Of a DNA stretch of 34,455 nucleotides, positions 3,721-31,741 are shown in pieces. The DNA is from Entrophospora sp. SA101 (lineage: Eukaryota > Glomeromycota > Glomeromycetes > Entrophosporales > Entrophosporaceae). The stretch spans positions 203,919 through 238,373 of the forward strand of contig CAUDNR010000557.1 of assembly GCA_958430865.1 (NCBI GenBank), in the 5' to 3' direction. A program made the position numbers and the translations under genes. The first letter of the stretch is position 1; each line of letters starts with the position of its first letter. Under the pieces are notes generated by a model. That model made no database searches and was not told the DNA's origin. It saw only the letters and a list, made by a program, of their open reading frames with translations.

Positions 3721-4460
3721 TAGCCTTTTCTACTGATTTATAAATCTTCTTATAATTTACCTGTAATATAATCAAGTAGATTATTAATAAAGTTTGCATT
3801 TGTTAATTTGGAAGTAAATGTAACTCACGTTGTTACAAGCATGTGTAAAAGGAATTATTTGTTTTTATAATGAAAAAATTTTTATTATAATAATAATGTG
3901 CATTTGTACACCGCGGAATCTATATTATAACGAAAGTATAAAATAAAATATCAAAAAAAATTATCAACTTATTTCTAGTACCACATGATCTAAGATCACT
4001 GAAATAAAGTTTTGGTAATTTCTGAGTTCGGGACCTCAAATAATTAACTTCAGCCCTAATAAAAAAATAGAACTGCTAAAATGTGAGTAACTTGCTCGAC
4101 TCACTCGTAATAATCCCAATTTTGTTGGGTATGGATATTAGTAGAAACGTGATAGACAATTTTGACCTAACTATTATTATAATTCAATTTGTGAAATAAT
4201 TCCATCGATTATTAGAGTTTGTCAGCAATGTGTAATACTAGCTAATCAAATACAGGCGGCACTAACAATAAAGAATAATAATAATAATAGCAAGAAACGG
4301 ATATTTTTTCAAAATTTAAATCACTATATATAGGATTCAATTTTAGCACATTCTTAAAAAAGACCCCTTGGGGAGTTACCCCGAAATGTTTGATGTGGTG
4401 TTATCTTAAAGTTTCCGATGTAATGAAGCAATAATATCAAATGGTATCATCATTCGAACT
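3721..4460. other. Intergenic, no gene seen
   Basis: AT-rich non-coding DNA with dense stops in all frames. A short ATA/TAA-rich stretch lies near 4268-4290. No repeat structure or RNA gene was recognised. Confidence 0.5.
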
Positions 4461-4727
4461 CTAGAGCTGAAAATCATAATAACACTTTGCGCTATTTTCC
4501 TTTAAATGTTTCGCAAATTCCTTGAAATGTAGATGTTTTTTCACGTTATGGCCCCTTTCTATTGAAAGCTCCCATGTGCATCGAAATAGTACACTGAAAG
4601 CTGCGTCGACATAATATCTTGGCAGATGTGCTGAAATAGGGCATTGGCATATCGAATGATAAGCGTAGTGATGTAAGCCGGCAGGCTTAATACCATCCGA
4701 GAGGTTGTTTTCATCAGCTGGGAACGG
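4461..4727 (-). CDS. Orphan exon-like open frame without ATG
   Basis: An 88-codon open frame runs on the minus strand from about 4727 to a TAG at 4461-4463. A CAG acceptor-like site near its 5' edge would let it be a terminal exon starting at about 4716. The residues are not low-complexity: the frame contains AGLHHYAYHSICQCP, LPRYYVDAAFSVLFRCTWEL and HLHFKEFAKHLKEN, with several His and Cys. Its G+C is higher than that of the surroundings, which supports past or present coding. I do not recognise the family and found no upstream exon. A transposon-protein fragment is possible. Confidence 0.3.
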   Translation of the reverse strand, partial: PFPADENNLSDGIKPAGLHHYAYHSICQCPISAHLPRYYVDAAFSVLFRCTWELSIERGHNVKKHLHFKEFAKHLKENSAKCYYDFQL

Positions 4728-4739
4728 TATTTACAAACA

Positions 4740-5530
4740 ATAAAAATAATTGATTTTTTGATAATTCATATAAATATATATACAAGATAAAAAATTAGTT
4801 CTTGGATGGCTTAGTCAACTAAGGTTTTTTAACGTCTAATATCACCAGATAAATGTATTGACATGTCTCTCGAAAAGTTATCTATCGTTAGCATCCAATA
4901 GTATCAAAATCAATTGGCGAACCATGATGTTCTCAGATGATATGTGGTATCTGATGAACCAAAAATTTAAATAGTGATACAAAGTTTTGTTTGACGAACT
5001 ACTATAAAGGCCAAGATCCAAACTATTGACCATATCATTGAAGATAGATTACGATTAGCAAAGATGAATAAGACATAAGCCAATTATAATTTGGGCAATT
5101 AAAGGATAAAAAAAAAGGTTTTGATGATAAAGAAAATATTTATTTAGACGAAGTTGCTAGCCTGAAAAAGCAACCAAAATATTCAAATGAGAATATCCCA
5201 AAGTGAAAATGTTATTAGGAACTTTAGAATAAAATGTTTTCTTACACTAAAAAACTCGTGACATAGTGTTCATTTTGTCAGACATAATAATAATGTACAT
5301 ATAAAAATCTGATTTTCCTTTTTAAAAAAAATCTGATAAATAATAATATTATATAATTGGTATTTTATATTGATTATGTTATAATATGTTGTGTAAAAAA
5401 GACACTCTTATCTGATCGTAGTTTATTTATACCAAAAAAAACCAAAAAATATTTTTTTTTTCTTTACTAACCTTTTTGTATTATTATTAAAAATATAAAA
5501 TTATATATATATAAAATATAATAAAAGAAA
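4740..5530. other. Upstream region of the mitoferrin gene
   Basis: Mostly featureless AT-rich DNA. Scattered protein-like bits near 4990-5220 are broken by stops and not identifiable. The last 30 bp before the ATG at 5531 contain a TATATATATATAAAATATA-type stretch (about 5502-5520) that could act as a TATA-like core-promoter element. Confidence 0.4.
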
Positions 5531-6705
5531 ATGCCTGAAATTGTTGATCATGATTATGAATCTTTACCAGAAAATTCACCATTAACAGCAAACTTAATCG
5601 CAGGAGCCTTAGCAGGTATAGGTGAACACGCAATTATGTACCCTGTAGATAGTGTAAAGGTAAAGTGGCTATACACACATTATAATTACCTTCAAAACTA
5701 TATCTATATCTTACCGTATCATATATATACATACATATATAGACTCGTATGCAAATAATAAATCCAACACCACAAGCTGTTTACACAGGAGTACTGAATG
5801 CATTTTCACGAATTTCTACAACAGAAGGGGTACATACTCTATGGCGTGGGGTTAATTCAGTGGTATTAGGAGCAGGACCTTCACATGCTTTATATTTTAG
5901 TACTTATGAAGTTTGCAAAGATTTATTTGTAGCGGATAAAAAAGATCCAGGACATCATCCATTTGCCGCAGGTATTTGTGATATGCTTTTAGATATTTTG
6001 ATTATATATATATTTTTGTATTTTTTGTGTATTAATATATATATATACTTATTCTTATTTTAAAATCAAGGTGCAGCAGGTGCATGTGCAACAATAGCAA
6101 GTGATGCATTGATGAATCCATTTGATGGTAAATAAATATATTATTATATACTATATATTTTTAAAAATGATAATATTTTTAACATATTTTTCTTTATAGT
6201 TATTAAACAAAGAATGCAAGTTCATGGATCAGTATACCGTAATGTAGTTGATTGTGCTAAGACAGTTTATTCAAGAGAGGGATTAATAGCATTTTATGTA
6301 TCATACCCAACAACACTTTCAATGACAATACCATTTCAAGTCTTTCAATTCAGTTCATATGAATATTTTCGTAAAGTGTTAAATCCCAGTGGTCAATATG
6401 ATCCAAAGACTCATGTTATGGCTGGTGGATTGGCAGGGGCAATTGCAGCAGCTGCAACAACACCTTTAGATGTCGCAAAAACTCTATTACAAACACGAGG
6501 CAACACAAATGATTTAAAAATAAGAAATTGCAATGGATTATTTGGAGCATTTAAAATTATTTATGAACGAAATGAACTAAAAGGGTTTTTCAGAGGATTA
6601 AGACCACGTGTGTTGTCTCATATGCCATCAACTGCTATTTGTTGGTCAGTTTACGAATATTTTAAATGGTTTATCAATAAAAAAGATATTTTAAACTATT
6701 TGTAA
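5531..6705 (+). CDS. MRS4: Mitoferrin, mitochondrial iron carrier (Mrs3/Mrs4 type)
   Basis: A mitochondrial carrier family protein of the inner membrane that imports Fe2+ for haem and Fe-S cluster synthesis. Four exons, 5531-5659, 5743-5971, 6071-6127 and 6200-6705, joined by 72-99-bp GT-AG introns, give an in-frame 306-residue product, the usual length. All three carrier signature repeats are present: PVDSVKTRMQ (across intron 1), NPFDVIKQRMQ (across intron 3) and TPLDVAKTLLQTRG, each followed by an acidic-G block (STTEGVHTLWRG, YSREGLIAFY, YERNELKGFFRG). Diagnostic mitoferrin blocks include GIGEHAIMYPVD, LGAGPSHALYFSTYE, ASDALMNPFD and YPTTLSMTIPFQ. The reading frames look intact. MRS3 and MRS4 are paralogous in yeast; the symbol stands for that clade. 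Confidence 0.95.
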
Positions 6706-10795: not shown

Positions 10796-13305
10796 CTAGA
10801 GAAAATCAAGGTTATTCAACGAACTATCATCATCTGTATAAATTTTTAAGCCTTTAGATTTAGCAATCTCTTCATCTAAGTTTCTACTTGTGTGATATGC
10901 ATTTGGATGCGAGTTGTGTACATGTTGTGAACCTCTGCTACCACTAGTAGTAGTATTATTATTAACAATACGATTACTAATATAGTTTATAAACAATTCG
11001 TTATCTTTACGCATAGCAAAATCACAAAGCTCTCTACTAGTTGGTCTTTTTGATGGATCCACATCCCAACATCTCTGCATAATTTGCACGCAATCATCAG
11101 GCATTTCGGATAATATTGGTGGTCGTAAACCTTCACATATATCAAAAATCAAACTATGGTCATGAGCCCTATCAACAAATGGTAGATGACCTGCAAATAT
11201 TTCCCACATTAACATCCCAACACTATAAACATCTGACTCTTTTGTGTTATTTTTGCCTCTAAGTAGCTCGGGTGCAAGATATGATACAATTCCATAGACT
11301 TTATTTGATAACTTTTCATCAACTGGTCTGCATAATCTCAAATCTGTAATAAAACAACCACCCGCTTCCACAAGTATATTACCACTATGTAAATCACAAT
11401 GGATTAAATCTTTTTGATGTATATCATTTAATGCATCACATAAAGATTTAAAGATTTTCATCCTGTCCTTTGATGTTAAATTTAAATGATTTTTTTGCAA
11501 GTAATCTCTTAAATTTCCCTCTGCAATATTATTCAAGACAATTGCACAATTTCCATTATCTGGGAATTTAGTTATACCATAGCAAGGAACAATCTTGTCC
11601 GATTTAATTTTACAATAATTCACTGCCTGAAAATAAATATAAAATCAATTAGTATTATATATAATATAGTATTGTTTTAAATGACAATTACCAACCTCAT
11701 CAAAAAAGCTTTTTCTTGGATCACTTGAATCATTTAAACTTTTTAATACTACTTTTTGCCCTCTAAAATAACCAAATTCCATTTTATTTTCGTTGTAATC
11801 AACTATATAACCTCTTGTCCACGTAGCAGTATAAATTGAATTAAATCCATCTTCTGTCAACTTTCTTATATCTTCAAATTGCTCAAAAGGTATCCATTCT
11901 AAAATATATCCTGGCAGAGAGAATTTCATTTGACATTGTTGAATAAAATCATCAATTACGTTACTTCCCGATGTCCAAGTGGTGAAAAGATTCTGTAATT
12001 GTAAGCTAATACAACCTTCACAGAATCTATCAGAATATCTTGTCAATTTGCACTTGTTACATTCTTTTGGTCTGCCCCTTTTATTTGTTGCATTATATAA
12101 TTCAGGCTCATAAATAAACTTTTCCTTACAAAATTCTTTTTCATTTTCAGAAAGCTTCTTGTTTTCTTCGACTAATGATGAGCCCTATCAACAAATGGTA
12201 GATGACCTGCAAATATTTCCCACATTAACATCCCAACACTATAAACATCTGACTCTTTTGTGTTATTTTTGCCTCTAAGTAGCTCGGGTGCAAGATATGA
12301 TACAATTCCATAGACTTTATTTGATAACTTTTCATCAACTGGTCTGCATAATCTCAAATCTGTAATAAAACAACCACCCGCTTCCACAAGTATATTACCA
12401 CTATGTAAATCACAATGGATTAAATCTTTTTGATGTATATCATTTAATGCATCACATAAAGATTTAAAGATTTTCATCCTGTCCTTTGATGTTAAATTTA
12501 AATGATTTTTTTGCAAGTAATCTCTTAAATTTCCCTCTGCAATATTATTCAAGACAATTGCACAATTTCCATTATCTGGGAATTTAGTTATACCATAGCA
12601 AGGAACAATCTTGTCCGATTTAATTTTACAATAATTCACTGCCTGAAAATAAATATAAAATCAATTAGTATTATATATAATATAGTATTGTTTTAAATGA
12701 CAATTACCAACCTCATCAAAAAAGCTTTTTCTTGGATCACTTGAATCATTTAAACTTTTTAATACTACTTTTTGCCCTCTAAAATAACCAAATTCCATTT
12801 TATTTTCGTTGTAATCAACTATATAACCTCTTGTCCACGTAGCAGTATAAATTGAATTAAATCCATCTTCTGTCAACTTTCTTATATCTTCAAATTGCTC
12901 AAAAGGTATCCATTCTAAAATATATCCTGGCAGAGAGAATTTCATTTGACATTGTTGAATAAAATCATCAATTACGTTACTTCCCGATGTCCAAGTGGTG
13001 AAAAGATTCTGTAATTGTAAGCTAATACAACCTTCACAGAATCTATCAGAATATCTTGTCAATTTGCACTTGTTACATTCTTTTGGTCTGCCCCTTTTAT
13101 TTGTTGCATTATATAATTCAGGCTCATAAATAAACTTTTCCTTACAAAATTCTTTTTCATTTTCAGAAAGCTTCTTGTTTTCTTCGACTAATGAAAAAAA
13201 ATCTCTCTTTTCAATGATAGCAAAAAAACGCAGTCTAGTATAAATTTTATATATAAATTCCTTTCTTTTTTGTGATAATGATGATAATAATTCAGCATAT
13301 GACAT
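10796..13305 (-). CDS. TKL-type protein kinase locus 1, rearranged by internal tandem duplication
   Basis: A predicted cytosolic Ser/Thr or Tyr-like kinase with an N-terminal zinc-binding-like module, a type expanded in Glomeromycotina; substrate unknown. A full-length product needs exon 1 (12712-13305, 198 codons, ATG at 13303-13305) joined to the left-hand exon 2 (10796-11626), giving 474 residues; both junctions are phase 0. Features in order: CNKCKLTRYSDRFCEGC (CxxC...CxxC); a degenerate glycine loop LTEDGFNSIY; VVLK lysine; catalytic loop IHCDLHSGNIL (HRD is HCD, Asp kept); TDLRL where TDLGL is usual; SYLAPELL; PFVDR; RPTSREL; and a tail with AYHTSR. The 1016-bp duplication puts a truncated exon 2 and a second partial exon 1 between the two good exons, so the splicing machinery must skip about 1 kb to make the full protein. 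Otherwise the product stops at ...DRAHH. Confidence 0.7.
11162..12177. repeat. Left unit of 1016-bp perfect tandem duplication
   Basis: The sequence 11162-12177 recurs at 12178-13193 with an offset of exactly 1016 bp and no difference that I could find by reading. The unit covers the 3' half of exon 1, the intron and the 5' half of exon 2 of the kinase. The breakpoint joins ...GACTAATG to ATGAGCCC with at most 1-3 bp of microhomology. Confidence 0.9.
11696..12177 (-). pseudogene. Duplicated partial kinase exon 1 (no start codon)
   Basis: The left-hand copy of exon 1 lacks the first ~37 codons because the duplication breakpoint cuts it at 12177. No ATG precedes the conserved CNKCKLTRYSDRFCEGC block in frame, so it cannot start a protein by itself. 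Its donor site (GAG|GTTGGT at 11696/11695) is intact, so it could be used as a cryptic internal exon. Confidence 0.75.
12172..12642 (-). pseudogene. Duplicated kinase exon 2, truncated after the APE region
   Basis: The right-hand copy of exon 2 is identical to the left one up to PFVDRAH, then runs across the duplication junction into CAT TAG and stops. It contains the catalytic loop, TDLRL and SYLAPELL but lacks the C-lobe helices with RPTSREL. If spliced from exon 1 it yields a kinase of about 353 residues missing the end of its C-lobe. Confidence 0.75.
12178..13193. repeat. Right unit of 1016-bp perfect tandem duplication
   Basis: Second copy of 11162-12177, offset 1016 bp. Beyond 13193 the sequence becomes unique (GAAAAAAAATCTC) and carries the real 5' part of exon 1 with the ATG. 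Apparent complete identity means either a very recent event or an assembly join of two haplotypes. Confidence 0.9.
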
Positions 13306-14639: not shown

Positions 14640-15300
14640 TGGTCTTGGACGCTCTAGCCATCCTGAGCAATGACACTTTTCCAATATGAGTTGCATAGTT
14701 GATGGTATCCATTTGGTCTTCCGCATCCACGGTAATGGTAATTCATTTTAGTCTCGAGAAAAACGTTCATCTGCTTTTTGTTTCACCATTTTTTATCACA
14801 TCCGCATAGTAATGGCTGATTTTTGCTCGAAAATGTGATCGGTTGAAACTTTTTCAAGACGATGTTTTTCTTCTGTTTGTTGATCTAACAAATTTTCCTT
14901 CTTCGATTATATATAGTAATGACAGGCGTGGTGGTTGATCGTGTTGTAATGGTAATTTCTGGTTGCAATGATGTTTCGTAGTTGATGATTTCATTTTCTT
15001 GTGAGAGTTATGGCGAGATATTATCAATTATAATGGTTGGAATAGTGGTTTGTTTGGTAATGACAGTGGTTGAATATTCTTCTAACAGAATGCCATGCTA
15101 GTTAATGGCATTTGTCAAAACTCGATATAGATTTCTCTTAAGTTGCGTGACTTTGCAGTCAACGCTTTACTTAATATTGATAAAATTCAACTCGGAATGA
15201 CATTTTGGTATTTAGTTTCTTTGGGCGTTAATCAAATAATCTTGATAATTGTGAAGTAGTAGTGGTTTTCCACATAAAATACATGCTTCCAGTCTTTTTA
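14640..15300 (-). pseudogene. Decayed coding remnant with CxxC motifs
   Basis: Minus-strand translation shows protein-like segments separated by stops and frame changes: EACILCGKPLLLHNYQDYL near 15290-15235, a Thr/Ile-rich stretch with TTVITKQTTIPTIIIDNIS, and YRGCGRPNGYHQLCNSYWKS near 14740-14680. The CxxC...C spacing is loosely like the zinc-binding N-terminal module of the neighbouring kinases, but no kinase lobe is present. The identity of the ancestral gene is unclear. Confidence 0.3.
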
Positions 15301-15369
15301 ATTCCAATAGTATATATATAGGCCTTTTCAATAACGAGTATGGTGAAGACTATTGTCCTGTCATCGCCA

Positions 15370-16545
15370 CCAAAATGCTAGAGTGTAATCCAAGTTCACA
15401 GCCTATAGCTGCCATTCACTAGCAAGATTTCCATTTGTTGTATGGCCACTAACCACTTTCCTCGCTATCCAAATGGATAACCGTTTACAAAAAAAAATTT
15501 AAAAAAAAATAAAGAAAAAGAACCTTTTCTGAAAGGCTGTCCCCTTGATAATATAATTAAAGGTTTTGGGGTACTTGCTTATTCAGCAAAGGTATTTCAC
15601 GACATCAATTTATTAATTACAGTCAAGAATAATTTTTGTTATTATTATCAATGTGTGTTAAGGTATCAATTATTATTAGTTATTAAGATCATCCTTACAC
15701 TGAAGGAAATTCAAGTGTATTTATACCTCTTGAGGTATTACTTAATCATAAGGACAAAAAAAGACCACATAACAATTTACAAATAAAGAAATATTAATAT
15801 TAACTAGTGAGTGCTAACAATGATTAGTAGCTTAATTTGCTTTAATGAGCAAACGAGCAAAGTTAGGACTAACATTGATTAACAACAATGGTTAATGAAG
15901 TATTACTGGTAGTATTATTGTAATCGTAAACATGAGGCAGTTAAACAAGCTACTTAAGTTATTTTGTAAATAAACCAAAGTGAGTTTGTAATCAGTAAAT
16001 ATAAATAAATATAAACGACTGAAATAAATCAATCACAAGTGAATAAATGAACTTTATAGTATTGTAAAAAGACATCTTTATTTATTTCATCAAGTGTGCT
16101 CACAGATTCGTCTAGGTGCAAGAAAGAGGCAATGATCGAAAACCAAATTAAATTTGTAAACTAATTAATTGACAAGCACCAAATTATTTGCAATTAATTG
16201 ACAAGAGCAGTCCAAAAATTAAGCTTTAATTGTTGTTAATTGACAAAAATGATATCTTGCATTAACAAGAATCGGAAACTATAAAAAGTTTATTATTCCA
16301 AAACATTATTATAATTTAGCTTTGAGAATCAAAGTAAGAATGAAATAAAAAAGATAAATAAAAAAATAATTTTAAATTTATAGTTGAGATTAAATTAATT
16401 ATTCATTACATCTTTCTTTTATTATTGTTACAGTACTAGAATTTAATGTTTATTGATTAATTAATTAATATTGTTTGGTAATAATTAATGGATAATAATT
16501 TCCAATTAATTAATAATGAAATTTTTATTTACCTTTGTTAACATT
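15370..16545. repeat. Right copy of segmental duplication: 3' flank of kinase pseudogene
   Basis: Non-coding flank paralogous to 9690-10795 (see there). It is diverged by many substitutions and indels and is therefore clearly older than the perfect 1016-bp tandem duplication in locus 1. Confidence 0.75.
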
Positions 16546-18044
16546 CTAGAGAAAATCAAGATTATTCAATGAACTATCATTACCTATATAAATTTTTAAG
16601 GTTTTAAATTTAGCAATCTCTTCATCTAAGATTCTACTTGTATGATATGCCTCTGGATGTGGTTTATGTGCTTGTTTCAAAGCACTACTACCACCAGTAG
16701 TAGTAGTAGTATTGTTATCATCATCATTAACAATTTCTTTTAGTTTGTTTTCAGCAAAATCATAAAGCTCTCTACTAGTTGGTCTTTTGATGGATCCATA
16801 TCCCAACACCTTTGCATCATTTGCAAATAATTTTCTGGCATTTCAGGTAATATTGGTGGTCGTAAACCTTCACATATATCAAATCAAACTATGATTGTGA
16901 GTTCTATCATCAAATGGTGGACGTCCTGCAAATATTTCCCACATTAACATTCCAACACTATAGATATCTGATTCTTTGGTGTTCCTTTTGCCTCGAAGTA
17001 GCTCAGGTGCAAGATATGATACAATTCCATAGATTTTATTTGATAATTTTTTGTCAACTGGTCCACATAATCCTAAATCTGTAATATAACAACAATCTCC
17101 TTCCATAAGTATATTACCACTATGTAAATCACAATGGATTAAATCTTGTTCATGTATATCATCTAATGCACTACATAAATAATAAAATATTGCAATTCTG
17201 TCATTTGATGTTAAATGGCTTTTTTTTGCAAGTAATCTCTTAAATTTCTTTCTAAAACATTATTTAAAACAATTGCATAATTTCCATTATCTGGAAATTT
17301 AGTTATACCAAAGCAGTCAAAAATTAAATTTGATTTAATTTTGCAATAATTCACTGCCTGAAAATAAATATAAAATCAATTAGTATTGTATAATACAGTA
17401 TTGTATAAATGACAACTACCAACCTCATCAAAAAAGCCTTTTCCTGAATTACTTGAATTGTTTAAACTTTTTAATACTACTAGTTGCCCTCTACCTCCAA
17501 AATAACTAAATTCCTTTTTATTTTCGTTGTAATCATTAATACATCCTCTTGTCCATGTAGCAGTAAAAATTGAACTAAATCCACCTTCTGTCAACTTTGT
17601 TACTTTTTCAAATTGTTCAAAAGGTATCCATTCTAAAATACAAGTTGGCAGAGATGATTTCATTTGACATTGTTGAATAAAACCATCAATTATGTTATTC
17701 CCAGATGTCCAAGTGGTGAAAAGATTCTGTAATTGTAAACTAATACAACCTTCGCAGAATCTATCAGAATATTTTATCAATTTACACTTGTTACATTCTT
17801 TTGGTTCACCCAATCCATACATTGCATTATCTAATTCAAAATCATAAATAAACTTTTCCTTGCAAAATTCTTTTTCATTTTCAGAAAGCTCCTTGTTTTT
17901 TTTTTTGACTAATGAAAGAAAATAATCTTTTCTATTTTCTCTTTCAGTGTTAAATGCTGCATTATTATATATTCCACCATAAATTTTATACATAAACTGC
18001 TTTCTTTCTGGTGATAACGATGATAATAGTTTACCATGTGACAT
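16546..18044 (-). pseudogene. TKL-type protein kinase locus 2, three frameshifts
   Basis: A paralogue of locus 1 with the same architecture: exon 1 at 17424-18044 (207 codons), a 66-bp intron 17358-17423, and exon 2 from 17357. Exon 1 is open and carries CNKCKLIKYSDRFCEGC and a better glycine loop, LTEGGFSSIF. Exon 2 is broken three times relative to locus 1: 1 bp lost in an A8 run near 17220 (stop soon after DYLQKK), 2 bp lost near 16883 after HNHSLI, and 1 bp lost near 16788 just before RPTSREL. Between lesions the catalytic loop IHCDLHSGNIL and a canonical ITDLGL are preserved. Two of the three are homopolymer changes, so sequencing error should be excluded before it is called dead. Confidence 0.8.
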
Positions 18045-18663
18045 TATATAAAGTATAAATATAAAATTTGACTTGGTGTTTTAATAATGAGCGGAATGGA
18101 AATTTTTGGAGAATAACAGTTACAAAAAAAAGATTGAATATTTGCCATGTCACGATCTCCTTCCGAAACCCGCAAGTCGTGCGACTTCCGTGCGGCCTTT
18201 TGCCGATTGTCTCTTTTTACGTCTAGCCGTGCCTGGTTTTTGGCGCGATCAACGTTTCCACATATTTAGCAAAAAAATTGGTTATTTTTATAAAAAATGT
18301 TGCAATTGCATTGAATTTTTTGCTTTCAATTAGACTTTATTAATCTCAGAAGACTACATTACGCATTAATTCTAAGATAAACAAATCTGTTTTAATGTTT
18401 TAGTATATTCAACAATTTTCTTCAATTGTTTTTTTAGAAATAACAATAATCATCTTTTATATATTTATTTGCTTATATGTTTTAGTTGATCAGGCTTCAA
18501 GATAATTTATCTTATAATAAATAATTTAAATCTAACAATTATTTTTCATGAGGATTTTTATTTTCTCTTTTATATGTAGAATTTCGACGTTGATTACCAA
18601 AAAGTTTCGGAAAATACACTTACCAATCGTTTAGTGTTCTTGCACTATACTCCCAATAAAAAA
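18045..18663. promoter_or_regulatory. Divergent intergenic region between kinase loci 2 and 3
   Basis: A 619-bp head-to-head spacer. It contains an isolated GC-richer patch (about 18150-18255) with a 14-bp palindrome, AAGTCGTGCGACTT, at 18174-18187. The rest is AT-rich. The open frame at 18106-18333 crosses this patch and is not supported as a gene. Any shared promoter function is inference. Confidence 0.4.
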
Positions 18664-21600
18664 ATGAATGAAGGTATTTTTTCTTATATAGAAAATAACT
18701 ATTTTAAATATGTAGTAATAGTAAAAGGATTTTTACATCATAATTTAATATTTTGCTTATAATCTTTAGCTAAATTCTATAAAGGTAAATTAACTTTACA
18801 ACACAGAATAAACTTTACCAAAACATCATCTAATTAAATAATTTTCTTTTTTATTTCTTTATAATAACCAGGGGGTAAGTATTAAGTATTACAAACTTTA
18901 TCAAAACATCATCTAATTAATAATTTTCTTTTTTATTTCTTTACAATAACCAGATAGTAAGTATTAAGTATTATAAATTAACTTTTACAACACAAAATAA
19001 ATTTTATCAAAACATCATCTAATTAAATAATTTTATTTTTTATTTCTTTATAATAATCAGGGAGTAAGTATTAAGTATTATAAATTAACTTTTACAACAC
19101 AAAATAAATTTTATCAAAACATCATCTAATTAATAATTTTATTTTTTATTTCTTTATAATAATCAGGGAGTAAGTATTAAGTATTATAAATTAACTTTAC
19201 AACACAAAATAAACTTTATCAAAACATCATCTAATTAAATAATTTTATTTTTTATTTCTTTATAATAACCAGATGGTAAGAATTATATTATAAAGTAACT
19301 TTTACAACACAAAATAAACTTTATCAAAGCATCATCTAATTAAATAATTTTATTTTTTATTTTAATAGATTGTGAGTACTACATTATAAATTAACTTTTG
19401 CAGCACAAAATAAACTTTATCAAATCATCATCTAATTGAATAATTTTATTTTTTATTTAATAGATTGTGAGTATTATATTATAAATTAACTTTTGCAACA
19501 CAAAATAAATTTTATCAAAACATCATCTAATTAAATTTTTTATTTTTTATTTCATAGGGAGTAAGTAAGTATTATATTATAAATCATCTTTTACAACACA
19601 AAATAAAACATCATCTAATTAAATAATTTTATTTTTATTTCTTTATAATAACCAGCTGGTAAGTATTATATTATAAATTAACTTTTACAACACAAAATAA
19701 ACTTTATCAAAGCATCATCTAATTAAATAATTTTATTTTTTATTTCATAGGGAGTAAGTATTATATTATAAATTAACTTTTACAACACAAAATAAACTTT
19801 ATCAAAACATCATCTAATTAAATATATCCCTTTATAATAACCAGATGGTAAATATTATATTATAAATTAACTTTTACAACACAAAATAAACTTTATCAAA
19901 ACATCATCTAATTAAGTAAATTTATTTTTATTTCTTTATAACAACCAGTTGGTAAGTATTATATTGTATTATAAATCAATTTTTATAATTTTTATATCTA
20001 ATCAATAAGTTTATTTTTTTTATTTATAATAACATCATCTAATTAATTTTTTTATAATAAATAACCAGGGAGTAAGTATTATACTGTATTATATATCAAC
20101 TTTTATAATTTTTATATCTAATCAATGAGTTTATTTTTTAATTTACAATAACAAGTTGGTAAGTAGCAAAGTATATTTATTATAAATTAAACTTTATTAA
20201 AACATCATATAATTAATAAATCTTCTAATAACCAGGGAGTAAGTATCATATTATGAAATTAGCTTTTACAACACAAAATAAATTTTATCAAAACCTTGTC
20301 TAGTTAAATAATTTTATTTTTTGTGTTTATAATAACTAACAATTGAAGGTAAAATAATTTATAAACTTATCTTTTTTATTATCTTGAAAAATAAATCTAT
20401 TTTATTTTTAATTTTTTTATAATGAAATAATAAGATAACGCTAAGGTGTTTAAAGAAAGAAAAGAAAGATATAGAACCTGTTCTGTTTGTGCAAGATATA
20501 ATACTAATTACCAGTGGTGTCAATCATGTGATCCCAAATTGTTAGCTCAAAGTTGGACTAGCAGTGGTAACAAAAAATTGGATGAAATAATCAGAAATAC
20601 ACAGCTTGAAGCAAAGGGATTTGATAGTTATCATTACCTTGAATGGATTCCTTATGGCCAACTCACAATCAAAGAAGTAATAGGTGAAGGTGGTTTTGCA
20701 ATTGTATATAAGGGTAGCTGGTCAAATGGTCCTAGATATGTTTATTGTAATGAAAGGTATTATTGTAAAGATGGTTTTGTAGCATTAAAAAAGTTTAAAA
20801 ACTCACAAAATGCTTCTGAAAAGTTTTTAAAAGAGGTAAATAATTTGATATAATTAATTAACAATTAATGATTTTTAAACCATACATTAATTTTTTATTA
20901 ATTTTCATAAAGCTTCAAAATCACATTAAATTTATAGGACCTTATCACAGGGGCATTGTTAATATTTATGGTATTTCACAAGATCCAAATACAAAGGAAT
21001 ATGTTCTTGTAATGAGATATTCAGACAAAGGAGATTTTAAGAAATATTTAAAATTTAAATATAGAAGATGGAATGATAAAATTAAAATACTTTACAACAT
21101 TATCTTAAGTTTAAGCACATTCCATCAAGAAAAACTTGCACATGGTGATCTTCACAGTGGTAATATTTTATATTTTGGATATTTATCCCAGGCAATGATT
21201 ACAGATTTAGGGTTATCAGGCCCAACTAACCAAGAAACATCAAGTGAAAATAGCATTATTGGAGTGCTACCATATATTGCACCAGAGGTATTAAATGGGA
21301 AACCTTATACACAAAAATCAGACATCTATAGCTTTGGGATTTTAATGTCAGAAACATCAACATGTCAACAACCATTCAAAGATAGACCACATGATCTAGA
21401 TCTTGCTTTCAAGATCTGTAGTGGCTTAAGGCCTAGTTTTTCAGATAACACTCCAGAATGTTACATTAAGTTAGCATACAAATGCATGGATGCTGTTCCT
21501 GAAAAAAGACCAACAGCAAATGAAATTTTAAAAATTATTACTTTTTGGAAAAATGCAATTGAATCTAATATATCTAGTTATTCTGAAGTACAGCTTGATG

Positions 21601-21937
21601 AATTAGAAAAAATAAAAAAATTTTTTGAGGAAGCAGATAAAAAACCCTTTAATCCTTCAACAATTATGGCAAGCATTCATCCAAATGCTGTTTATACAAG
21701 TAGATTATTTAATTTTACAAATCTTCCTCAACCTGTAAATTCCAATAAAGTTACAATTATTAGTAACAATAATGGTAATCATCTAATTTATTGTTATATA
21801 TTTAATCTTAATTATTTATCATTAATGTTATTTTAAATTATAAACAAATACTTATAGAATCTAAACAAATCGAATTAACTATGCCAGATTCTAAACAAAT
21901 TGAATTAACTATACCAGACTATTTATCAAATTTATGA
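18664..21937 (+). CDS. TKL-type protein kinase locus 3, intact, with intron/microexon array
   Basis: Predicted kinase of the same broad family. Exons: 18664-18673 (ATG AAT GAA G), 18770-18784, 20435-20835, 20913-21774 and 21858-21937. These join in phase to 456 codons with one terminal TGA, giving 455 residues. The start MNEAKFYK|DNAKVFKER reads smoothly across the two tiny exons. The frame from 20446 has no ATG of its own and a stop at 20431-20433, so an upstream exon is required. Motifs: CSVCARYNTNYQWCQSC, glycine loop IGEGGFAIVYKG, VALKK, catalytic loop AHGDLHSGNIL (HGD for HRD), ITDLGL, PYIAPEVL, RPTANEI, and a tail with AVYTSR. The last exon repeats an 11-residue unit (DSKQIELTIPD). Intron 2 holds the array described separately; optional 3-nt exons there would lengthen the protein by one residue each without a stop. 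Confidence 0.85.
18785..20348 (+). repeat. Tandem array of ~15 intron units separated by 3-nt microexon-like triplets
   Basis: Each unit has a donor (mostly GTAAGT, twice GTGAGT), ACACAAAATAAA, CATCATCTAATTAA (CTAAT fits the CTRAY branch-point consensus), a T-rich tract and a YAG acceptor (AAG once). Triplets lying exactly between acceptor AG and the next donor GT: GGG 18872, ATA 18954, GGA 19061, GGA 19167, ATG 19273, ATT 19369, ATT 19464, GGA 19558, CTG 19656, GGA 19751, ATG 19845, TTG 19949, GGA 20069, TTG 20156, GGA 20236 (first base given). Unit spacing varies from 80 to 120 bp, but the 3-nt gap never does. A degenerate 16th unit ends AG|GT at 20348/20349 with no triplet. The array lies wholly inside the intron before the main exon of the kinase. 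Confidence 0.9.
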
Positions 21938-31478: not shown

Positions 31479-31741
31479 ACAATCTCAACAACCTCAACAA
31501 CAACGAAGTATTCATCTAGTTCAAAAAGTAGCTTCTACTGGTAACGACAATGGCAAAGTATTTACCCAGTTCAAGGTTAACTTCTTCTACTAATAATGAC
31601 AAACAACAACAGCAAAGCATTTACCCAGTTCAAAGGGTAGCTTCTTCCACTATTAATGATGAACGACAACAACAAAGTATTTATCCAGTTCAAAGGACAA
31701 CTTCTTCTATTAATAATGACAAACAACAACAAAATATTTAA
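31479..31741 (+). CDS. Gln-rich 21-residue tandem-repeat open frame (possibly a pseudogene)
   Basis: About four copies of a 60-66-bp unit encode variations on QQQSIYPVQRVASSTINDER. The open frame from ATG 31550 to the stop at 31739-31741 gives 63 residues with three units. A further, older unit (QQQRSIHLVQKVASTGNDN) lies upstream at about 31490-31550 in a different frame, so a frameshift separates it. The unit is basic and rich in Gln, Ser and Asn, likely disordered. Whether it is an exon of a larger gene or a decayed remnant cannot be decided here. Confidence 0.35.

Follow-up and report, generated by a model that had tools for sequence, protein, structure and literature searches.

Runs of predicted single-codon exons between short, near-identical introns in kinase genes of Entrophospora sp. 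SA101

Introduction

Can an exon consist of a single codon, and can many such exons follow one another in the same gene? A kinase gene in a 34,455-nt stretch of DNA from Entrophospora sp. SA101 (the whole stretch is referred to hereafter as the window) raises this question. Its second and third exons are separated by a ladder of complete introns, spaced three nucleotides apart. The original prediction read the ladder either as 3-nt microexons under selection, any subset of which might be included to give up to 2^15 variants, or as a minisatellite that copied one intron boundary pair without function.

Results

The ladder and its host gene

The ladder lies between AAAG (to 18784) and ATAACGC (from 20435), and its parts are given in Table 1. 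All 15 junctions read AG-NNN-GT(A/G), so the exact 3-nt distance between acceptor and donor that had been predicted was confirmed throughout. Fifteen junctions imply 16 introns. The units are 80-120 nt long, two of the donors are GTGAGT, and the last intron (20239-20434) is longer than the others. A CTAAT box, said to be carried by every unit, is not intact in all, as positions 20163-20235 read CATATAATT there. Spacing that holds in 15 of 15 junctions is far beyond chance, yet the spacing would also survive if a single tandem repeat had been copied 15 times, and tandem-repeat analysis identified the ladder unit as a tandem repeat.

Table 1. Features of the ladder and of the host kinase gene in the window; junction starts are given for the predicted 3-nt exons, in their order along the gene.
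Feature	Junction start	Position	Strand	Basis
Exon 1 (putative), ATGAATGAAG, codes for MNE + 1 nt		18664..18673	+	sequence
Exon 2, 15 nt, CTAAATTCTATAAAG, AKFYK + 1 nt, phase 1		18770..18784	+	sequence and paralogs
Ladder: 16 predicted introns and 15 predicted single-codon exons		18785..20434	+	sequence
Predicted 3-nt exon GGG	18870	18872..18874	+	junction scan
Predicted 3-nt exon ATA	18952	18954..18956	+	junction scan
Predicted 3-nt exon GGA	19059	19061..19063	+	junction scan
Predicted 3-nt exon GGA	19165	19167..19169	+	junction scan
Predicted 3-nt exon ATG	19271	19273..19275	+	junction scan
Predicted 3-nt exon ATT	19367	19369..19371	+	junction scan
Predicted 3-nt exon ATT	19462	19464..19466	+	junction scan
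Predicted 3-nt exon GGA	19556	19558..19560	+	junction scan
Predicted 3-nt exon CTG	19654	19656..19658	+	junction scan
Predicted 3-nt exon GGA	19749	19751..19753	+	junction scan
Predicted 3-nt exon ATG	19843	19845..19847	+	junction scan
Predicted 3-nt exon TTG	19947	19949..19951	+	junction scan
Predicted 3-nt exon GGA	20067	20069..20071	+	junction scan
Predicted 3-nt exon TTG	20154	20156..20158	+	junction scan
Predicted 3-nt exon GGA	20234	20236..20238	+	junction scan
Spacer-less AG|GT (AAG|GT) within the last intron, a candidate for recursive splicing		20347..20350	+	
Exon 3, DNAKVFKERKERY..., Cys-rich region and beginning of the kinase domain		20435..20835	+	sequence, Pfam
Predicted intron between exons 3 and 4		20836-20912	+	reading frame
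Exon 4 (end is an upper bound), kinase domain and C-terminal part		20913..21836	+	Pfam

Exons 1 and 2 together encode MNE-AKFYK and leave phase 1, in which exon 3 continues. In the genes that carry such arrays, the donors of these two exons (GTATTT, GTAAAT and similar) are unlike those of the array introns. The joined protein matched PF07714 with an E value of 2.3e-36, kinase families being its only Pfam matches, and among the matches listed its named relatives were kinases of Rhizophagus, Gigaspora, Diversispora and Glomus (~35-44% identity). Two more kinase reading frames (PF07714) lie close together on the minus strand of the window at 10799-12660.

Related arrays in the genome

A search of the genome (101 Mb, 2123 contigs) with the array DNA gave at least 78 matches, the window's own included, with 40 scored of 123 candidates; the ladder is one of dozens of related arrays. 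We examined 21 stretches, comprising the window and 20 others designated L031-L050, in which a junction profile found 11-46 junctions per stretch. A kinase exon 3 (identity of 72% or more, same strand) lies just downstream of the array in 13 of the 21, although L031 has only an 18-residue piece and L042, L043 and L046 duplicate other stretches; in the remaining eight the array is followed by Ns, a contig end or other sequence. Genome-wide, 52 of 150 scored exon-3 matches had an identity of 72% or more, and in the other 98 it was 51-59% (150 scored of 1320 candidates, with duplicates and fragments among them). On the upstream side, the start of exon 1 is the same or similar in 18 of the 21 stretches, as is exon 2, the donor of which is lost in two (L035 and L036). 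Sequence other than this tiny-exon pair precedes the array in L033, L039 and L048. In L048 (3000-5420) the array follows an exon that ends in ...KDNAINK + 1 nt, again in phase 1, rather than MNEAKFYK; the preceding sequence resembles the C-terminal part of a kinase and may reflect a different genic context or a join made in assembly.

The longest array seen, that of L039 (contig C262), has 46 junctions, four in-frame stops and no kinase exon in its stretch. Its appearance is that of a decayed array, and we use it as an internal contrast in what follows. Identical duplicates occur, and arrays coincide with break points of the assembly, so the array of the window could be joined to the wrong neighbour. 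Between the window (15001-19270) and L031 there is no difference in 3780 nt of upstream sequence or in the first units, and they diverge inside the array; the pair may represent a recent duplicate, a haplotype or an assembly join.

Spacing and splice sites across the arrays

Applied to the 21 stretches, the junction profile gave 471 matches, of which 451 read AG-NNN-GT, 13 read AG-NNN-GC (10 once duplicate contigs were removed), three showed G- in the alignment (GT in the sequence), two had AT and two were partial. The arrangement AG, three nucleotides, GT or GC is retained in 467. GC is the other donor accepted by spliceosomes, and it is the main substitute here, the non-GT donors being 13 GC and 2 AT. 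The donor is GTAAGT in 306 of 377. Splice-site columns are among the most conserved in the intron but share that rank with other columns. Across the arrays both sites are conserved around a very short interval, as would be found around microexons. Half-broken junctions number three in the stretches (L034, L047 and L049); in the partial match at L049 421 the acceptor was lost through a deletion. Nine gaps between junctions were traced to loss of both sites together (two), insertion into an intron (three) and junctions missed by the profile (four, one of which, in L032, reads as 3 nt or no spacer), and in none of the gaps examined was there an insertion in a triplet. The single-intron insertions lie in L045 at about 4590-4850, in L044 at 2160-2423 and in L048 at 4170-4424; that of L045 has inverted ends like those of a small transposon.

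Nearest-neighbour introns differ by 0.044 substitutions (4.4%) and 0.024 indel events per site. The 741 indel events in 30435 aligned intron sites lead to an expectation of 25 in 348 triplets and none was observed, a count that leans somewhat toward the microexon reading because the profile favours 3-nt spacing. The triplets thus do not gain and lose bases like the rest of the unit, as those of a minisatellite would. This bias was checked by reading the gaps, as above, and by two further searches of the genome. Exact sites with the spacing left free from 0 to 20 nt gave 196 matches, and among the 100 listed, within which spacings of 0-2 nt were checked, 99 had 3 nt and one had 17. A search for spacings of 4-30 nt gave only this 17-nt case, on C262 (L039).

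The AAG|GTAAA of the last window intron also occurs in L031, L032, L033, L044, L049 and L050 and is absent from L040 and L041 among the ten tails compared. Where the window has the spacer-less AG|GT, the paralog L045 reads AG-AAG-GT.

Variable triplets beside uniform introns

The 348 introns compared (336 of them distinct) are 62-117 nt long, with a median of 91. The three triplet positions carry 1.87, 1.48 and 1.90 bits, compared to 0.05-0.7 for most intron columns; the triplets are near-random and hypervariable beside homogeneous introns. Even where the 64-nt flanks are identical, 17-35% of triplet positions differ (23 junction pairs, 11 of them from blocks common to the window and L031 or to L032 and L033); the figure is 46-71% where the 64 nt carry one or two differences. 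Homogenisation of the introns alone could place unrelated triplets beside near-identical flanks, as could hypermutation or selection. Position 2, the third base of the codon, is the least diverse, with T and G in 306 of 348.

Of the 11 arrays whose 3' end could be read, eight finish with CAT-CTG; the window, L045 and L028 do not. In the 28 pairs of these eight arrays the CAT and CTG tails each show 0 of 84 differences and the adjoining introns differ by 9-12.5%, but since the arrays were chosen by this tail, its lack of differences is a description and not evidence. Peptides predicted from the triplets include GRNYSTAEIYSAGTSD, GEIELLWIFFYSAGTSD and a 33-residue stretch in L041.

Order of the triplets

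The order of the 367 triplets (337 neighbouring pairs) of 18 non-redundant arrays was compared with within-array shuffles. In phase 1, neighbouring triplets form 5 stops against 20.6-20.8 expected, and a count this low was reached in 0 of 2000 and 0 of 5000 shuffles, the significance of which is overstated since the units of an array are related. L039 holds four of the five stops and is not depleted by itself (4 versus 5.4); without it, 1 stop was found against 15.4 expected. The exclusion of L039 was decided after its result had been seen, and both versions are given. Counted as distinct types, stop-forming pairs make up 3 of 212 against 15.8 expected (1 of 187 against 13.5 without L039), and totals per array, over 19 arrays including L028, are 5 against 21.2 (phase 2, 43 against 46.9). 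For the window and for L031 the expectation is 0.00. The original prediction was right that the triplets of the window form no stop; as they are unable to do so, the window adds nothing to this test, and the case rests on the family.

Composition or a general order of the units was rejected as the source of the depletion, which is absent in phase 2 (42 versus 46.6), in reversed order (24 versus 20.8; 19 versus 15.3 without L039) and at lags 3 and 4. In phase 0, six triplets are themselves TGA. At lags 1 to 5 the counts are 5 versus 20.6, 13 versus 19.0, 19 versus 17.5, 16 versus 16.1 and 10 versus 14.5, and without L039 they are 1 versus 15.4, 8 versus 13.9, 13 versus 12.6, 12 versus 11.2 and 7 versus 10.2. 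Lag 2 gives P 0.04 (P 0.02 without L039), and the 10 versus 14.5 at lag 5 is not significant (P 0.10). This pattern suggests that selection acts on a product in which each triplet is joined to its next neighbour. When codons with an expectation of at least 2 were ranked without L039, TAG (0 versus 9.6) and TAA (0 versus 3.3) were the two most depleted of 33, and TGA stood at 1 versus 2.4; with L039 included, TAG (4 versus 14.8) and TAA were still the two lowest of 34. Avoidance of new T|AG acceptors was considered as a cause and discarded, since CAG, AAG and GAG at the joint are undepleted and TAA is depleted.

Genome-wide, T|AR neighbours (TAA or TAG in phase 1) of the kinase-array intron family number 7 against 27 in reversed order, 2 against 19 when de-duplicated and without C262 (L039), and 2 (on C973 and C2019) against 7 on contigs outside the 21 stretches, some rows having been assigned to the family by contig and position. 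Seven arrays judged intact on both sides gave 1 against 4.35 (P 0.033) in phase 1 and 14 against 17.4 in phase 2. These subsets all point the same way but are weak alone. L044, an otherwise intact gene, has an in-frame TGA, and stops are also present in L039, C973 and C2019. As expected of coding sequence, the predicted joined products of these arrays keep the frame and avoid stops, with L039 and L044 as the exceptions.

Search for spliced products

The predicted joined peptide was not found in protein collections, which we count against the spliced reading. The query with the spliced protein had no match over its first 160 residues. The 18 proteins examined from the first search comprise 10 that start in the intron before exon 4, six that start inside exon 4 and two more distant kinases (P0007 and P0084). 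A shorter query gave 199 matches (120 listed), and a motif scan of 240 collected proteins revealed none with the predicted joined peptide. Among nine proteins with unusual starts, seven continue through the exon-3 donor, as unspliced DNA would, and P0184 and P0161 stop just before it. The close matches examined look like unspliced DNA.

Discussion

What the arrays probably are

The genome-wide family, the lack of indels in the triplets and their stop-avoiding order rank the ladder above a mere repeat. On these patterns in the DNA we consider it likely that the array consists of successive single-codon exons, which would mostly be spliced in order and translated. The 3-nt microexons under selection that had been proposed are backed by the spacing, by splice sites in which GC is the main substitute and by the avoidance of stops in the exon frame.

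Each ~90-nt intron would be recognised as a unit, by intron definition, and the introns would probably be removed one after another. An acceptor and the next donor are too close for simultaneous binding when 3 nt apart, which makes stepwise removal probable. The 3-nt exons, mostly all of them and in order, would be joined in phase 1 between AAAG| and |AT AAC, and the predicted product of the window is MNEAKFYK-GDRRNDYWTGNVGIGN-NAKVFKERK.... GTAAGT is close to full complementarity to U1 on the intron side, and with a donor that is near-perfect on that side the exon side would be free to vary. The arrays may have grown via tandem copying of an intron plus 3 nt. Unequal exchange or gene conversion within the introns would keep them alike, and such exchange could move codons without a frameshift. 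As the triplets vary widely, each paralogous kinase is predicted to have its own variable N-terminal peptide.

It is improbable that the array is one inert 1.65-kb intron in which a repeat copies the boundary pair and nothing internal is spliced or translated. The tandem-repeat unit, the ability of copying alone to preserve the spacing, the uninformative triplets of the window and the failure of protein searches to find the joined peptide all fit such a minisatellite, but it does not account for triplets free of indels, for GC as the main substitute donor or for an avoidance of stops that is limited to neighbours and to the exon frame. An origin by tandem copying, which is part of that alternative, is probably right; the lack of function probably is not. 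Somewhat less doubtful, and still unlikely, is combinatorial use of the 3-nt exons, in which subsets would be skipped to give many isoforms. All of the exons are symmetric, so skipping preserves the frame, and stops are somewhat low at lag 2. Avoidance is nevertheless strong at lag 1 only, and with none at lags 3 and 4 and none of significance at lag 5, the skipping of two or more exons would be unguarded against stops. Mostly complete inclusion in order fits this better, and the 2^15 variants of the original prediction were not upheld.

We likewise give little credence to the view that the junctions are stepping stones (recursive sites) that aid removal of a long intron, with the triplet as a by-product. 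The spacer-less AG|GT in the last intron of several paralogs favours it, and introns of ~90 nt suit fungal intron definition, but stepping stones require neither a spacer nor a stop-avoiding order, and with 3 nt retained they would be identical to single-codon exons. Very improbable, too, is that copies of an introner-like element were inserted one by one into a coding exon that was already there. This would explain why near-identical introns adjoin unrelated triplets, but independent events would not give exact 3-nt, phase-1 spacing, with 11-46 junctions per stretch.

Comparison with known systems

To our knowledge, the 3-nt exons known so far stand singly, and we found no report of consecutive 3-nt exons in the literature surveyed, mostly open-access papers. 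Fungal NLR/HET proteins with WD-repeats show concerted evolution of repeats with hypervariable codons; these repeats involve no introns, and a role in self/non-self recognition would be an analogy only. The ladder is nearest in logic to the micro-exon genes (MEGs) of Schistosoma and would work like a MEG; we do not class it as a member. MEGs have runs of short exons that yield variable proteins, with exons of 3-81 bp and introns up to 5 kbp (PMC10526429). In the arrays, too, many short symmetric exons (11-46 junctions) would follow one another and the predicted proteins would be variable (1.48-1.90 bits). Unlike MEGs, these fungal genes would have repeated exons of one codon each, with up to 46 junctions per stretch, and their introns are short and nearly identical copies in tandem.

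That exons of 1-3 nt can be spliced is indicated by 3-nt alternative microexons and a 1-nt constitutive exon of Arabidopsis APC11 (PMC4674806); APC11 has a single tiny exon, whereas the ladder would have many in succession. Introner-like elements are multiplied introns in fungi (PMC4457414), and in intron gain by tandem duplication a segment is copied with its splice sites (PMC4974935). They account for the copying but not for the coded triplets; here every copy comes with a codon, and the register is maintained from copy to copy. Hypoxylaceae stwintrons, as described in PMC8469720 and PMC9024468, are also families of related fungal introns spliced by consecutive reactions. Stwintrons are nested, with no exon between and with an internal intron that breaks an external splice element, whereas here 3 nt separate successive introns. 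SP7 effectors with repeats were considered as a likeness and are not similar (PMC11333574).

A second array family and other features of the window

The genome also contains intron arrays of a second, unrelated family, again with AG-NNN-GTAAGT geometry. This family has 312 exact-site junctions genome-wide, and among the 100 listed of these 91 have 3 nt, four have 1 nt and five have 4 nt. The arrays are found on C1, C65, C138, C158, C172, C200, C514, C760, C1042, C1121, C1182, C1418, C1507, C1584, C1772 and others. T|AR neighbours in this family (26 versus 30 reversed) show no avoidance in this order, which we count against our reading; counts of the triplets themselves, taken for the frame, are TAR 0 versus RAT 11 and TGA 10 versus TGB 9.

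The chances seem about even that the arrays serve as single-codon exon shuffling, in which cassettes of an intron plus a codon would let kinases gain, lose and swap codons in frame to give a hypervariable N-terminal tag; the second intron family suggests more than one occurrence. If this is true, the spliceosome would assemble a peptide codon by codon, in runs of 10 to more than 40, and a new minimum length would apply to consecutive constitutive exons. Homologous introns would act as joints for codon shuffling without frameshift, a new route to protein diversity. Gene finders and RNA aligners readily overlook exons of this length, so proteins of this kind would be wrongly annotated wherever they are present.

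Elsewhere in the window, an exon of a mitochondrial carrier protein (PF00153) lies on the plus strand at 6136-6702, and a tandem repeat of period 60 is present in three copies at 31554-31732.
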